Shown here one piece after another: positions 14,072-47,580 of a DNA stretch of 63,039 nt (positions are counted from its first letter, which is position 1; every line of letters begins with the position of its first letter). The notes beneath the pieces are model-generated. The model did not search any database. It was not told the origin of the DNA and was given only the letters and a program-made list of their open reading frames with translations. The position numbers and the translations under genes are program-made. Source of the DNA: Cyanobacteria bacterium CG_2015-22_32_23 (GTDB lineage Bacteria; Cyanobacteriota; Cyanobacteriia; Cyanobacteriales; Cyanobacteriaceae); contig JAACUG010000064.1 of the NCBI GenBank assembly GCA_009993045.1, positions 1-63,039 on the forward strand, in the 5' to 3' direction.

Positions 14072-14228
14072 AGACTTCTTGCAGAAGTGGAGTAATGAGT
14101 AATAAGTAATAAGTAATAAGTAATAAGTAATAAGTAATAAGTAATGAGTAATGAGTAATGAGTAATGAGTAAGAAATTAACGTTTTCCATCCTAAAATAG
14201 ATTTTACTTTTTATTTTGCAAGAGGTCT
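14072..14228. mobile_element. MITE-like element with 15-bp terminal inverted repeats
   Basis: The left end AGACTTCTTGCAGAA (14072-14086) and the reverse complement of the right end, AGACCTCTTGCAAAA (14228 to 14214), match at 13 of 15 positions. Both ends are flanked by ATA, a possible 3-bp target duplication. The 157-bp element codes for nothing and is largely filled by the heptamer array at 14091-14173. It could be the non-autonomous remnant of an insertion sequence; no transposase for it is in the window. Confidence 0.55.
14091..14173. repeat. Heptanucleotide array AGTAATA/AGTAATG, about 12 units
   Basis: Eleven full 7-bp units in perfect register (first agtaatg, then six agtaata, then four agtaatg) and a partial twelfth lie between urtA and the TVP38 gene, inside the MITE-like element. 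A long reading frame across it on the minus strand is only a translation of the repeat. Confidence 0.95.
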
Positions 14229-34624: not shown

Positions 34625-34641
34625 TTGATTTTACCTCTAAA

Positions 34642-34657
34642 TCCCCAACTATGGGGA
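34642..34657. repeat. Short palindrome of the TCCCCAA...TTGGGGA repeat family
   Basis: The hairpin TCCCCAACTATGGGGA lies in the purH-pyrF gap. With its flanks (cctctaaa before, cttttattt after) it matches the core of the tandem repeats in the gene at 43858-47580 (cccctaaatccccaagtttggggactt). The T-rich 3' side could also act as a weak terminator for purH. Confidence 0.65.
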
Positions 34658-34733
34658 CTTTTATTTCCATTTATTTATAGAGAAAGTGCGATCGCACAAT
34701 TTAAAATAACAAATTATAACATTAAATATTACT

Positions 34734-36122: not shown

Positions 36123-37571
36123 ATGACTTCTATAAGTGAGTTACATCAAGCCATTAAAAGTAAAAAACGTTCGGCAGTGGAAATTACCACAGAATATTTA
36201 AACACTATTGAAAAATTAGAACCACAAATTAAAAGTTTTTTATGGGTGACGAAAGATTTAGCGCTAGAAACGGCGCAAAAAGTAGATGAAAAAGTAGCCA
36301 AAGGGGAAGAAATTAATATCCTCGAAGGAATCCCCATGGCTATTAAAGATAATATGTCCACTAAAGGCATTCCTACCACTTGCGCTTCAAGAATTTTAGA
36401 GAATTTTATTCCTAGTTATGAATCTACTGTCACTCAAAAATTAAGAGATAAAGGCGCAGTAATTTTAGGTAAAACTAACTTAGATGAATTTGCCATGGGA
36501 AGTTCGACGGAAAACTCAGGTTATCAAGTCACTGCTAATCCTTGGGATATAACTAGAGTACCGGGAGGTTCTTCGGGTGGTTCAGCCGCCGCCGTTGCTG
36601 CTAATGAATGCGTGGTGTCTTTAGGTTCAGACACTGGAGGTTCAATTCGTCAACCTGCTTCTTTATGTGGGGTTGTTGGCTTAAAACCTACTTATGGTTT
36701 AGTTTCTCGTTTCGGTTTAGTTGCCTATGCTTCTTCTTTAGATCAAATTGGCCCTTTTGCTTATACTGTAGAAGATACCGCTATTTTATTACAGGCCATC
36801 GCAGGATATGACAGTAAAGATTCTACCAGTTTAAAAGTAGAAATACCAGACTATACACAATTTTTTACTACAGATTTAAAAGGCTTAAAAGTAGGAATTA
36901 TTAAAGAAACTTTTGGAGAAGGATTAGATAACGTTGTCGCCCAAAGCGTTAATCAAGCCATCAAAGAATTAGAGAAATTAGGCGCTCAAGTAAAAGAGAT
37001 TTCTTGCCCCCGTTTTCGCTATGGTTTACCTATTTATTACATTATCGCACCTTCGGAAGCCTCCGCTAATCTAGCTCGTTATGATGCTGTTAAATATGGC
37101 ATTAGACACGAAGCTGACAACCTTTTAGAAATGTACACCAGTACTAGATCTCAAGGATTTGGAGCGGAAGTCAAACGGCGTATTATGTTAGGTACTTATG
37201 CGTTATCTGCTGGTTACTATGATGCTTATTATCTCAAAGCGCAAAAAGTTCGTACTTTGATTAAAGAAGATTTTGATAACGCTTTTGCTGATGTTGATGT
37301 GTTAATTTCTCCTACTGCGCCAACTACTGCTTTTAAAGCTGGAGAAAAAACCGATGATCCCCTTAGTATGTATTTATCTGATTTAATGACAATTCCCGTC
37401 AATTTAGCTGGTTTACCCGGCATGAGTATTCCTTGCGGTTTTGATAGTCAAAATTTACCCATCGGAATGCAATTAATCAGTAATGTTTTACGAGAAGATG
37501 TCTTATTTAAAGTCGGTTACGCTTATCAACAAGCCACTAATTGGCATACAAAACGCCCGAATTTAAGTTAG
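36123..37571 (+). CDS. gatA: Glutamyl-tRNA(Gln) amidotransferase subunit A
   Basis: GatA is the glutaminase subunit of GatCAB, which converts Glu-tRNA(Gln) to Gln-tRNA(Gln). The amidase signature is complete: the catalytic Lys in [11 protein letters not shown], then [18 protein letters not shown] and [20 protein letters not shown] with the Ser-cisSer pair, and [20 protein letters not shown]. The length of 482 is normal. gatB and gatC are not adjacent. A heptamer array begins on the base after the stop codon. Confidence 0.98.
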
Positions 37572-37634
37572 TTAATAGTTAATAGTTGATAGTTGATAGT
37601 TAATAGTTGATAGTTAATAGTTAATAGTTGATAG
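37572..37634. repeat. Heptanucleotide array TTAATAG/TTGATAG, 9 units
   Basis: Nine perfect-register 7-bp units, each ttaatag or ttgatag, start immediately after the gatA stop codon (37569-37571). This is the clearest example of the heptamer arrays at gene borders here. Confidence 0.97.
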
Positions 37635-43857: not shown

Positions 43858-46800
43858 ATGGCAAATGTCTTGATTAATCAATATCGTCGAGATTTAGAAA
43901 CCAGAATTAGATATGGTGGTAGTCGCAATGAAAGCTCCGTTAGATTTGCTTTTGCTACTCTATTAAATGGTTACTGTAAACCTCGTAATTTTATCTTAGT
44001 TGATGAGTTAACGATTAAGAGTCGCATCAATACTTCTATTCGCCCTGATGGTATTATAAAAGATGCTTTACGCCTTGACTGGGGATACTGGGAATCTAAA
44101 GACGAAAAGGATACTATAGACGCTGAAATTGAGGCTAAATTTAAGAAAGGATACCCCACTGATAATATTTTATTTGAGGATACTAAAACCGCCGTATTAA
44201 TCCAAAATGGACAAGAATCTTTGCGGATTGAGATGGAAAATGATGATGATTTAGACAAGTTAATTAACCAATTTTTAGACTATGAAAGGGCAGAAGTAAA
44301 AGATTTTCGTCAGGCTATTAATTCTTTTAGTCAAGATTTACCCACCATCTTAGATACTCTCAGAAATTTAATTGATAGTCAATCAGGGGTTTTATCCCCC
44401 TCTACCCTTAATTCTGGGAATCGCCCCCCTACCCCCAATTCTGGGAATCGCCTCCCAGCCCCCAATTCTGGGGGAGTAAGAAAAGCATTGGAAGTCCCCA
44501 ATGTTGGGGATTTAGGGGCGAAAATCAACCCCCCTACCCCCAATTCTGGGAATCGCCCCCCTACCCCCAATTCTGGGGGAGTAAGAGACGGTTTGGAAGT
44601 CCCCAATGTTGGGGATTTAGGGGCGAAAATCAGCCCCCCTACCCCCAATTCTGGGAATCGCCCCCCAGCCCCCAATTCTGGGGGAGTAAGAGACGGTTTG
44701 GAAGTCCCCAATGTTGGGGATTTAGGGGCAAATCAAAAATTTATTGAGGCAAGGGATAAATTCTTAAAAGTATGTCAAGAATCCATTAATCCAGACATAA
44801 CTATTGATGATATTAGAGAGATGATTATTCAGCATATTTTGACTGAAGATATATTTAATAATATTTTTAATGAAGGGCAATTTCACCAAGAAAATAACAT
44901 CGCTAAACAATTAAATGAAGTTATCAAAACTTTTTTTACTGGTAATGTTAAACGCAATACTTTTAAGACCATTCAAAGTTATTATAATGCTATTATTCGC
45001 ACGGCTTCAAGTATAGTTAATCACCACGAAAAGCAGAAGTTTCTAAAAGTAGTTTATGAGACTTTTTATAAAGCCTATAACCCTAAAGAAGCAGATAGAT
45101 TAGGTATAGTTTATACTCCTAATGAAATTGTTAAATTTATGGTAGAAAGTACGGATTATTTATTAACAACTCATTTTCAGAAAAGTTTAGGGGATAAAGG
45201 TGTTGAAATATTAGATCCCGCTACAGGTACTGGTACTTTTATTACAGAAATATTAGAGCGTTTATTGCCTAAAGATCTTGAATATAAATATCAGCATGAA
45301 ATTCATTGTAATGAGGTTTCTATCTTACCTTATTATATCGCAAATTTGAATATTGAATATTCTTATCAGCAGATAAAAAAGCAATATTTAGAGTTTAATA
45401 ATATCTGTTTAGTTGATACTTTACACCCTACGGATAAGGGAGAAAAACAGATGAATTTATTTGGGATGAATGAGGAAAATACTGAAAGAATTAAACGTCA
45501 AAATGAGAGAAAAATATCAGTTATTATTGGTAATCCTCCCTATAATGCCAAGCAAGAAAACTTTAATGACAATAACGCTAATCGTAAGTATAACAGTATC
45601 GATAAAAGAATAAAAAATACTTATATTAAAGAAGGTACAGCACAAAATCAAATCGTAGTTTATGATATGTACACCCGTTTTATTCGGTGGGCAACGGATA
45701 GATTAAATGATGAGGGAATTATCGCTTTTATTACTAATTCTTCTTTAATTGATGCAAGGGCTTTTGATGGTTTTAGAAAATGTTTAGAGGAAGAATTTAA
45801 CTATATTTATATAATTGATTTAGGGGGAAATATTAGGGCAAATCCTAAGTTATCAGGCACAACTCATAATGTTTTTGGTATTCAAACAGGGGTAACTATT
45901 ACTTTTTTAATTAAAATCAATAAAAAATCTAATTTACCTTGTCAAATTTATTATAATCGCCGTCCAGAATTTGACACTAACACCGAAAAGTTAGCTTTTA
46001 TTAGTCAACATATATTAGAAAATATTATCCCTAAATCAGAGTTAATAAAACCTGATAAAAAACATAATTGGATTAATCAAACTGATAATGATTTTGATGA
46101 TTTAATTCCTTTAATTGATAAGGATGTTAAAGGGGGAAAAACTAAAGCCGTTAAAAATGAGGTAACAGGAGAGTTAGAAAATAAAGTTTGTGATGAGGCA
46201 ATTTTTAAGTTATTTTCATCGGGTTTAAAAACTCAAAGAGATGAATGGGTTTATGATGTTAGCAAAGAAAATTTAGAGACAAAAGTTAAGTTTTTAATCA
46301 ATACTTATAAAGCAACTTTAAAAGATAGTAACTATCAAGATAAAGAGAAAATTAAATGGGATAGGGAGTTAACTAAATATTTAGAAAGAGGTATAGAAAA
46401 AGAATTTAATAGTCAAAAAATTATTAAAAGTAATTATCGCCCGTTTTACAGTCAATATTTTTACTTTGATAAACATTTTAATGGTATGACTTATCAATGG
46501 TTTAATATTTATAATTCAGATAATTTAGATAATAAAATTATTGCTATTTCTGGTATAGCTCATACTAAACCTTTTTCTACTTATATTATTAATAATATAT
46601 GTGATTTAGGCTTTATTGAAACTTGTCAATGTTTGCCATTATATCGCTATGAAAAAGGAGAGAGAATTGATAATATAACCGATTGGGCGTTAACAAAATT
46701 CAGAGAATACTACCATAACGTAAAACGGGCTTCTAGCCCGTCGGAGGATAACAGGCAGGATGCCTGTTTTACGGATAAAGAGAGTATTTTTTATTATGTT

Positions 46801-47580
46801 TATGCTGTTTTACATAACCCTAAATATCGGGAAAAATATGAGTTAAATTTAAAAAGAGAGTTTCCGAGAATACCTTTTTATGATGACTTTTGGCAGTGGG
46901 CAAATTGGGGTAAACAATTAATGGATTTACACCTCAATTATGAGACTATTAAACCTTATGAATTGAAAAGAATTGATGTGGATAAATCTCCCCCAGAATT
47001 GGGGGCAGGGGGGCTGATTTTCGCCCCTAAATCCCCAAGTTTGGGGACTTCCGATACTTCTGTTACTCCCCCAGAATTGGGGGTAGAAGGACAAATTAAC
47101 GCCCCTAAATCCCCAAGTTTGGGGACTTCTGATACTTCTGTTACTCCCCCAGAATTGGGGGTAGAAGGACAAATTAACGCCCCTAAATCCCCAAGTTTGG
47201 GGACTTCCAATGCTTCTGTTACTCCCCCAGAATTGGGGGGAGGGGGGCGATTCCCAGAATTGGGGGCAAGGGAGCGATTATCCGTTAAACCGAAGTTAAA
47301 AGCGGATAAAATCAACCATAAAATTATCATTGATGAGGTAACAACTTTAACAGAAATTCCGCCTTTAGCATGGGAATATAAACTAGGTAATCGTAGCGCT
47401 TTAGAGTGGATTTTAGATCAATATAAAGAGAAAAAACCAAAGGATAAAACCATAGCAGAAAAATTCAATAATTATCGATTTGCTGACTATAAAGAGAAAG
47501 TAATTGACTTATTAATGAAAGTAACAACTGTTAGTATTGAGACTGTAAAAATCGTTAATGAAATGAATAAATTAAGCTAA
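43858..47580 (+). CDS. Single-chain restriction-modification enzyme (PD-(D/E)xK nuclease plus N6-adenine methyltransferase) with repeat insertions
   Basis: The 1240-residue protein joins a nuclease and a methyltransferase. Residues about 1-150 hold a possible PD-(D/E)xK site: Pro63-Asp64 (RPDGIIKD), Glu79-x-Lys81 (YWESKDEKD). Residues about 295-440 are helical. SAM motif I is DPATGTGTF (from Asp453) and the catalytic motif NPPY is at 559-562, the gamma class for N6-adenine. The C-terminal part should be the target-recognition domain (YRYEKGERIDNITDWALTKF, FDDFWQW-like YDDFWQWANWGKQL). It resembles type IIG or ISP-like enzymes without the helicase; site unknown. Three in-frame repeat insertions lie at residues about 177-291, 954-972 and 1044-1142. 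Confidence 0.87.
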   Translation: MANVLINQYRRDLETRIRYGGSRNESSVRFAFATLLNGYCKPRNFILVDELTIKSRINTSIRPDGIIKDALRLDWGYWESKDEKDTIDAEIEAKFKKGYPTDNILFEDTKTAVLIQNGQESLRIEMENDDDLDKLINQFLDYERAEVKDFRQAINSFSQDLPTILDTLRNLIDSQSGVLSPSTLNSGNRPPTPNSGNRLPAPNSGGVRKALEVPNVGDLGAKINPPTPNSGNRPPTPNSGGVRDGLEVPNVGDLGAKISPPTPNSGNRPPAPNSGGVRDGLEVPNVGDLGANQKFIEARDKFLKVCQESINPDITIDDIREMIIQHILTEDIFNNIFNEGQFHQENNIAKQLNEVIKTFFTGNVKRNTFKTIQSYYNAIIRTASSIVNHHEKQKFLKVVYETFYKAYNPKEADRLGIVYTPNEIVKFMVESTDYLLTTHFQKSLGDKGVEILDPATGTGTFITEILERLLPKDLEYKYQHEIHCNEVSILPYYIANLNIEYSYQQIKKQYLEFNNICLVDTLHPTDKGEKQMNLFGMNEENTERIKRQNERKISVIIGNPPYNAKQENFNDNNANRKYNSIDKRIKNTYIKEGTAQNQIVVYDMYTRFIRWATDRLNDEGIIAFITNSSLIDARAFDGFRKCLEEEFNYIYIIDLGGNIRANPKLSGTTHNVFGIQTGVTITFLIKINKKSNLPCQIYYNRRPEFDTNTEKLAFISQHILENIIPKSELIKPDKKHNWINQTDNDFDDLIPLIDKDVKGGKTKAVKNEVTGELENKVCDEAIFKLFSSGLKTQRDEWVYDVSKENLETKVKFLINTYKATLKDSNYQDKEKIKWDRELTKYLERGIEKEFNSQKIIKSNYRPFYSQYFYFDKHFNGMTYQWFNIYNSDNLDNKIIAISGIAHTKPFSTYIINNICDLGFIETCQCLPLYRYEKGERIDNITDWALTKFREYYHNVKRASSPSEDNRQDACFTDKESIFYYVYAVLHNPKYREKYELNLKREFPRIPFYDDFWQWANWGKQLMDLHLNYETIKPYELKRIDVDKSPPELGAGGLIFAPKSPSLGTSDTSVTPPELGVEGQINAPKSPSLGTSDTSVTPPELGVEGQINAPKSPSLGTSNASVTPPELGGGGRFPELGARERLSVKPKLKADKINHKIIIDEVTTLTEIPPLAWEYKLGNRSALEWILDQYKEKKPKDKTIAEKFNNYRFADYKEKVIDLLMKVTTVSIETVKIVNEMNKLS
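44385..44729. repeat. 105-bp in-frame tandem repeat array (about 3 units) in the R-M gene
   Basis: The landmark ggaagtccccaatgttgggg starts at 44490, 44595 and 44700, giving a period of 105 bp, or 35 codons. The encoded unit is rich in Pro/Asn/Gly (PPTPNSGNR, NSGGVRDGLEVPNVGDLGA). It lies in the linker between the nuclease part and the methyltransferase. Each unit contains small palindromes (ccccaattctgggg, tccccaatgttgggga). The minus strand is open across the same array. Confidence 0.95.
46719..46773. repeat. 55-bp cloverleaf palindrome inside the R-M gene
   Basis: The outer stem CGTAAAAC (46719-46726) pairs with GTTTTACG (46766-46773). Inside are two hairpins, CGGGCTTCTAGCCCG and ACAGGCAGGATGCCTGT. 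It adds residues such as KRASSPSEDNRQDACF in frame, between REYY and ESIFYY, where the reading otherwise appears continuous. It has the look of a dispersed extragenic palindrome. Confidence 0.85.
46987..47283. repeat. 78-bp in-frame tandem repeat array (about 3 units), inverse of the first array
   Basis: gcccctaaatccccaagttt begins at 47023, 47101 and 47179, a period of 78 bp, or 26 codons. Encoded unit: LGVEGQINAPKSPSLG and TSDTSVTPPE. The reverse complement reads NSGGVTEVSEVPKLGDLGA, clearly the same family as the array at 44385-44729, so the two arrays are inverted relative to each other. It lies near residue 1044-1142, in the probable target-recognition part. Confidence 0.94.

Follow-up and report, generated by a model that had tools for sequence, protein, structure and literature searches.

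How does repetitive, palindromic DNA come to lie inside an intact coding sequence twice, on opposite strands and both times in frame? The question is raised by a 63,039-nucleotide (nt) stretch of Cyanobacteria bacterium CG_2015-22_32_23 (GenBank assembly GCA_009993045.1, contig JAACUG010000064.1; ‘the window’, meaning the whole stretch analysed), in which a gene for a single-chain Type ISP-like restriction–modification (R-M) enzyme (43858–47580, + strand, 1240 amino acids (aa)) holds two tandem arrays of one palindromic family, here called A/B after the two sites that they occupy. The explanation favoured here, with a probability of about 0.8, is that a short palindromic repeat, dispersed in the genome, inserted to give arrays A and B, which then grew in tandem and were kept in a tolerant loop, their openness to translation coming from stop-poor hairpins and from selection on the host gene. 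Numbers prefixed G, C and L are handles for genomes, contigs and loci, G000 being the genome of the window.

Arrays A and B and a third insert in the R-M gene

Array A (44385–44736, + strand, aa ~176–291) comprises three 61-bp cores (44459–44519, 44564–44624 and 44669–44729) with 27-bp partial units between them, and array B (46987–47283, − strand, aa ~1044–1142) a further three (47023–47083, 47101–47161 and 47179–47239). Tandem Repeats Finder (TRF) places array A at 44424–44736 (period 105, 3.0 copies, 93% matches), array B at 46988–47239 (period 78, 3.2 copies, 93% matches), and 27-bp units at 44397–44472, 44628–44682 and 47226–47279. Each core consists of two hairpins, CCCCCAATTCTGGGGG and TCCCCAAnnTTGGGGA, with stems present in both. 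The six cores, three per strand, score 73–76 bits against a profile built from these same cores, a match by construction; independently of the profile, array A DNA used as a query retrieves array B at 72% identity (E 2.6e-48). Minus-strand frames remain open across both arrays (110 aa at 44379–44711; 124 aa at 46956–47330).

The host open reading frame (ORF) is intact and encodes one chain, in which Pfam recognises a coupler (ISP_coupler, 7.3e-15, residues 296–389), next an N6-adenine methyltransferase with an NPPY motif (N6_Mtase, 1.2e-13; Eco57I, 9.3e-11), and a specificity domain (Type_ISP_C, 1.6e-91, residues 781–1218); coupler, methyltransferase and Type_ISP_C together in one chain are what mark a Type ISP enzyme. 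The N-terminal region we take to be a nuclease. LlaGI and LlaBIII carry a translocase domain, whereas no helicase family was found in the window protein (Pfam, E 0.001), and its alignment to LlaBIII (PDB 4xqk), which also matches, begins only at 4xqk residue 750. The closest solved structure is PDB 7lo5 (1029 aa, E 2.1e-287), presumably DrdV. This structure aligns either side of both arrays and lacks the two of them: ~124 residues of the window protein stand against ~10 (174 to 184) at array A, and ~107 at array B, where 7lo5 steps from 913 to 937. Since the alignment brackets both, array A can be placed just before the coupler, at its junction with the nuclease region, and array B inside the specificity domain.

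A preliminary description of this DNA had proposed that the arrays are one palindromic family on opposite strands, both in frame in an R-M gene, readable either way, and lying in a linker and near the recognition domain. That observation was right and understated, and the array peptides it quoted proved correct on re-reading the sequence.

It had overlooked a third in-frame insert, at site C (46718–46777, + strand, aa ~954–973), a palindromic element with an outer stem and two hairpins whose sequence is unlike the A/B family. This element folds well against shuffles (z −5.45) and falls at a 15-residue gap in 7lo5. A paralogue of the host gene on contig C51 has a 99% copy at the matching place; beyond C51, the only match in the genome is a partial one of 24 bases.

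Dispersal of the A/B family

The A/B family is abundant elsewhere in the genome. Searches with arrays A and B returned at least 58 and at least 52 matches respectively (40/81 and 40/94 candidates scored). A profile of the six window cores (E 1e-3 or better) was then run over 280,544 bases, consisting of the window and the other stretches around BLAST matches, and found 78 matches that resolve into 47 arrays. Fifteen ORFs with open frames of ≥400 aa hold 18 of these arrays. The preliminary description had staked its case on the unit having other genomic copies, and this census bears it out. Many copies, intergenic and intragenic in one genome, are what characterises the class of Rickettsia palindromic elements (RPEs) and repetitive extragenic palindromic sequences (REPs).

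The host ORFs identified by Pfam include GltB, PriA, UvrA, GcvP, a ChlH/CobN-like protein, two hybrid histidine kinases and a glycosyltransferase. Others act on DNA: two Type ISP genes, a DUF1156/DNA-methylase ORF, a helicase-PLD ORF, an Eco57I/MmeI-like methylase, an Eco57I/TaqI_C ORF and a DUF7149/MmeI ORF. Compared with solved homologues, the array is additional sequence in GltB (a gap at residues ~592–608), GcvP (763 to 807 against 760 to 767) and UvrA (240 to 282 against 259 to 261). For PriA and the ChlH-like protein, whose solved homologues are distant, it lies in a stretch that does not align and exceeds that of the homologue in length. The family is therefore both in frame in conserved genes and additional to what their homologues contain.

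Among relatives the distribution is patchy: 16/60 genomes, own included, gave family matches (at most 12 candidates scored per genome), and four genus mates had at least 1, at least 1, 0 and at least 12. The array at site B of the C51 paralogue was found by BLAST and is below the profile cut-off. A weak partial copy, second hairpin only (20.6 bits), lies between two ORFs of the window (34634–34660, − strand). Contigs C136 (L037) and C78 (L061) each end, at their starts, inside family copies, where the repeat breaks the assembly; the Eco57I/TaqI_C and DUF7149/MmeI ORFs at those two ends are probably halves of one gene.

Reading frames of genic and intergenic copies

Openness differs between copies inside and outside genes. 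Forty-three full-length units were compared, 23 of them ‘genic’ (inside an open frame of ≥400 aa) and the remaining 20 called intergenic. The NSGG frame (+2) is open in 22/23 genic and 8/20 intergenic units (p 1e-4), the main antisense frame (−0) in 22/23 and 11/20 (p 0.003), and both together in 21/23 and 7/20. Genic units have on average 3.48 of six frames open (shuffles 2.58), intergenic units 2.35 (shuffles 2.27). Likewise, the spacing of neighbouring units is a multiple of three in 9/11 genic and 7/19 intergenic pairs (p 0.026). Host genes use frame +2 in 13 units, −0 in five, +0 in three and −1 in two. Two genic arrays have periods that are not multiples of three, namely L038 on C98 (80) and uvrA in L057 (77).

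Intergenic units are at shuffle level while genic units are open; openness is thus imposed by the host gene rather than being a property of the element. On each strand, two of the three frames stay open through the conserved second hairpin and all of them through the first: the repeat's composition makes it permissive, and what remains is the work of selection on the host gene. As to phase and stops, a count of which the preliminary description had put forward, many copies are indeed in frame in genes, but stop avoidance and spacing in multiples of three are not element-wide, being confined to genic copies.

In the mechanism proposed here, a two-hairpin repeat with outer arms would have spread through this genome, between and within genes, and, once inserted, would have grown locally in tandem by slippage or recombination. 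What allowed the arrays to stay in the R-M gene may be the tolerance of the site, an inter-domain loop, together with the frame-neutrality of the insert; their translation is predicted to yield a Pro/Asn/Gly-rich loop, presumably harmless to the enzyme. Two-way openness would then reflect hairpins poor in stops and, in addition, selection on the host gene, which removes variants that break the frame.

The same sites in homologous R-M genes

Matches to the window protein occur in 28/60 genomes (own included), some to the methyltransferase part only, and segments at sites A, C and B were compared in homologue copies with ORFs of ≥500 aa. The preliminary description had suggested alignment with homologues that lack the inserts, and such homologues exist: in addition to 7lo5, site A measures just 14 residues in eight copies (L005, L068, L069, L009, L010, L081, L012 and L013). 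Elsewhere site A holds the A/B family (two genes of this genome, two in G004), GEG/GRG-type palindromes or other sequence. Site C is as variable, with the small element of the window type (similar in G003, G004 and the C51 paralogue), GEG-type arrays, an Asn-rich stretch, or an ORF for a DUF559 nuclease or a Y1 transposase. Site B contents vary in the same manner, although among the homologues compared the A/B family is found there only in the window gene and the C51 paralogue.

Many of these inserts are themselves repeats. With ten of them as a query, each of the six source genomes gave between 7 and 126 matches; the GEG/GRG types, the repeat beside the Y1 ORF and the site B insert of G020 are clearly dispersed, whereas the window's site C element in G004 and the site A inserts of G020 and G001 were, among the matches listed, in Type ISP genes only. 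A tree of 26 sequences, built from insert-free columns, puts the window gene in one group with L005, L004 and L003 (support 0.87); at site A the first of these has no insert, the second a GEG-type repeat and the third the A/B family. The C51 paralogue is in a different clade. A wider count drew on 97 sequences including that of the window (ORFs of ≥850 aa in 80 named loci plus the earlier set, at least five contigs being in both). It yielded 80 insertions of ≥15 aa, some of which are not palindromic repeats; 59 were assigned to sites A, B or C by script and 10 by eye, and 11 were elsewhere. Two longer matched regions, L268 (an open 1001-aa piece with inserts of ordinary size) and L284 (broken, with unread bases), were not used.

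The R-M genes of this order are thus collecting sites, in which the same three loops have been filled repeatedly by different repeats. Other repeats at the same spots in related genes, sometimes around a small nuclease, suggest how repetitive DNA may spread.

DUF559 nucleases between palindromes

That nuclease, DUF559, provides the strongest new lead, a palindrome-bracketed cassette in R-M genes. The genome of the window has two DUF559 matches. One is a free ORF on C57 between arrays of the A/B family; in this region (L036:2700–5450) the arrays bracket in a row an ORF that we take to be Uma2-like, the DUF559 ORF and a pilin-like gene, the first and last judged by eye. The other is a whole domain within a 1249-aa MmeI-type R-M gene on C120 (L093:4835–8584), which has three in-frame repeat inserts; DUF559 occupies one of them, in frame, just before the NPPF motif and flanked by palindromes other than the A/B family. 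At this site (M1) one MmeI-type relative is near-empty (L243, 15 aa), four hold palindromes (L240, L241, L244 and L245), two hold short other sequence (L239 and L242), and G020, G011 and G008 have palindrome–DUF559–palindrome. At site C of Type ISP genes, DUF559 lies as an uninterrupted in-frame ORF between GEG-type palindromes in L004 (by Pfam), L006 and L070, and, judged by eye, DUF559 is at this site also in filamentous cyanobacterium ESFC-1 (L312). Occupied and unoccupied versions thus exist for both M1 and site C, as differences between species or paralogues, not as alleles of one species.

Across 120 genomes of the order, 80 had a DUF559 match. About 120 matches reached E 1e-20 or better, nine of them in open frames of ≥900 aa (two weak matches in frames of 1376 and 1348 aa were left out), and 8/9 of these long hosts carry or align to R-M or DNA-methyltransferase families; the ninth (G058) carries DUF1156, which in L038 accompanies a DNA-methylase domain. 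Two shorter hosts are a Type ISP piece (G069) and an SLFN_AlbA_2 protein (G061). As a control, none of the Uma2 matches listed was in a frame above 296 aa. All told, DUF559 is found in frame between palindromes in MmeI-type, Type ISP, Eco57I-type and DUF1156 genes (partly by eye).

Flanks were compared at 30 DUF559 loci, of which 26 were usable (23 free, three embedded), and at 29 Uma2 and 29 ribosomal S9 loci, four, one and one having been dropped for short flanks; the loci were best-scoring rather than random, and the controls differ in genome setting. The two flanks matched each other in 15/26 DUF559 loci, against 2/29 for Uma2 (p 5e-5) and 3/29 for S9 (p 2e-4), and in 13/23 free loci (p 1e-4 and 4e-4). 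The A/B family was in at least one flank of 9/26 DUF559 loci, compared with 1/29 and 0/29. Strong hairpins on both flanks, a weak test, were seen in 4/26 against 0/29 and 0/29. Embedded DUF559 domains had a ratio of nonsynonymous to synonymous change (dN/dS) of 0.03–0.11 in the 8/9 pairs for which it could be computed, although synonymous change was near saturation in several and the pairs are not independent. Two simpler ideas were discarded. Uma2 is not bracketed by repeats as a rule, given its 2/29 matching flanks; nor does DUF559 always sit between the two hairpins of one element, which seems so in L125 and L128 and is contradicted at C57.

These data raise the possibility, which we hold tentatively, that the palindrome-bracketed nuclease is the mobile driver: it would cut palindromic or unoccupied sites, and repair would copy in the palindrome with or without the nuclease ORF, leaving arrays such as those of the window as nuclease-less derivatives. 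The matching flanks, the A/B arrays either side of DUF559 on C57, the in-frame cassettes in four types of R-M or methyltransferase gene, the near-empty and palindrome-only M1 sites and the low dN/dS all point this way. On the other side, 11/26 loci have no flank match, the A/B family is on both flanks in just 4/26, strong hairpins are on both sides in as few, and on C57 the ORF sits between units, not within one. Moreover, cleavage, homing and movement are here inferred, and the nuclease may contribute to the enzyme's own activity, or may be a passenger carried along when repeats recombine. Cyanobacteria may, more generally, carry translated homing cassettes, a Vsr-like DUF559 nuclease between two-hairpin palindromes, in frame and unspliced in R-M and DNA-methyltransferase genes, with short arrays such as the window's as derivatives without the nuclease or as landing pads; we put this forward as a speculative generalisation, less likely than not. 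The association is in any case a candidate for what moves, or profits from, the repeats, and a possible origin of extra nuclease domains in R-M proteins. Among the open-access papers listed by the searches, none, judged by title and abstract, joins DUF559 to palindromic repeats or to in-frame R-M insertion, and the composite seems undescribed in the literature searched.

Other explanations

A second possible mover is a Y1 (IS200-like) transposase of the REP-associated tyrosine transposase (RAYT) kind. REPs elsewhere lie near tyrosine-transposase genes, which are proposed as their movers in the part of PMC3733652 drawn on here. Site C of a Type ISP gene in G011 (L069) has a Y1 ORF in frame between repeats, and a 50-base stretch of the flanking repeat matches at 96% in at least 12 other places of G011. 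Nevertheless, it is improbable that such an enzyme moves the A/B family. The window's genome has six Y1 matches; the profile gave no A/B hit in the sequence taken around them, which in some cases is truncated by a contig end, and a RAYT was rejected as mobiliser on this account. The GTAG/CGTC tag of REPs is not a regular feature either, CTAC/GTAG being near the first hairpin in 9/43 units and GTAG/CGTC at the second in 0/43.

It is equally doubtful that the repeats are selected at the protein level, as linkers or variable loops of the R-M enzyme that affect, for example, specificity or nuclease reach, with DNA similarity secondary. In favour of this, the inserts occur where two domains join and within the specificity domain, many relatives carry something at sites A, B and C, and 69/80 of the larger insertions fall there. 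Against it, copies of this DNA family are also found between genes and in enzymes of other kinds, the homologues carry either no insert or peptides of quite another sequence, and the inserts are missing from solved relatives.

Least credible is the suggestion of the preliminary description that the repeat was itself selected for two-strand openness and lengths divisible by three, as a means of invading coding DNA: the permissive hairpin cores and the genic units open in both main frames would agree with it, but it fails on the intergenic units, which are no more open than shuffles, are open in both main frames in 7/20 and in 12/19 neighbour spacings are out of phase, as well as on the two genic arrays of other periods.

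Several points weigh against the reading of arrays A and B as insertions of a dispersed repeat. The contrast between genic and intergenic units is partly one of ascertainment, as a genic copy is by definition open in at least one frame, although this leaves unexplained why intergenic units resemble shuffles. No target-site duplication or excision was demonstrated, so that movement as DNA is something we infer. The C51 paralogue has the same family at site B in the same orientation, so that a single insertion followed by gene conversion could account for both. Single-stranded units gain only modestly in folding over shuffles (105-bp unit z −2.3, 78-bp unit z −2.0). The census was limited to the stretches around BLAST matches, with scoring of part of the candidates, and the site C element has no full copy in this genome beyond the C51 paralogue.

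Separately, TRF identified heptanucleotide tandem repeats in the window, AGTAATA ×11.7 at 14091–14172 and TAGTTAA ×9.4 at 37569–37634. Short tandem repeats are known in cyanobacteria, and these resemble them.

Comparison with known systems

Inteins and introns with homing endonucleases resemble the DUF559 composite in that a small nuclease is encoded within the frame of another gene and relatives have the site unoccupied. The composite differs in that no splicing element was noticed, no search having been aimed at one, and in that the palindromes flanking the nuclease are themselves in frame. REP-RAYT and IS200-IS605 systems likewise have hairpin repeats either side of a small nuclease or transposase ORF, but the bracketed ORF here is mostly DUF559, not Y1. 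As for the nuclease itself, a Caulobacter DUF559 protein is a Vsr-like PD-(D/E)XK endonuclease, and DUF559 is often found in such enzymes, according to the portion of PMC12907096 used.

REPs offer further parallels. In the part of PMC3733652 relied on here, REPs are reported within ORFs, and uvrA is one of the DNA repair genes in which many of them lie; recB of two Xanthomonas was struck at about the same site by different REPs; and cyanobacterial REP families exist. The A/B family differs from GTAG/CGTC REPs in having no consistent tag, and the words restriction, methyltransferase and DUF559 are absent from the main text of that paper.

The RPEs are also alike. In the portion of PMC2229807 consulted, they measure 105–146 bp and occur both between genes and joined in frame to conserved ones, and the product of a gmk gene that carries an RPE was shown to be made and active. 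As here, palindromic repeats are both intergenic and in frame in conserved genes. The A/B family differs in phylum and sequence, in its tandem arrays, in occupying sites that hold other repeats in relatives, and in also bracketing a DUF559 ORF. No open-access work on in-frame palindromes in cyanobacteria was found by title and abstract. In-frame palindromes are of a known kind, that of RPEs and intragenic REPs, and such insertion, best known from Rickettsia, is here seen also in a cyanobacterium, where it reaches core enzymes (GltB, UvrA, PriA and GcvP).

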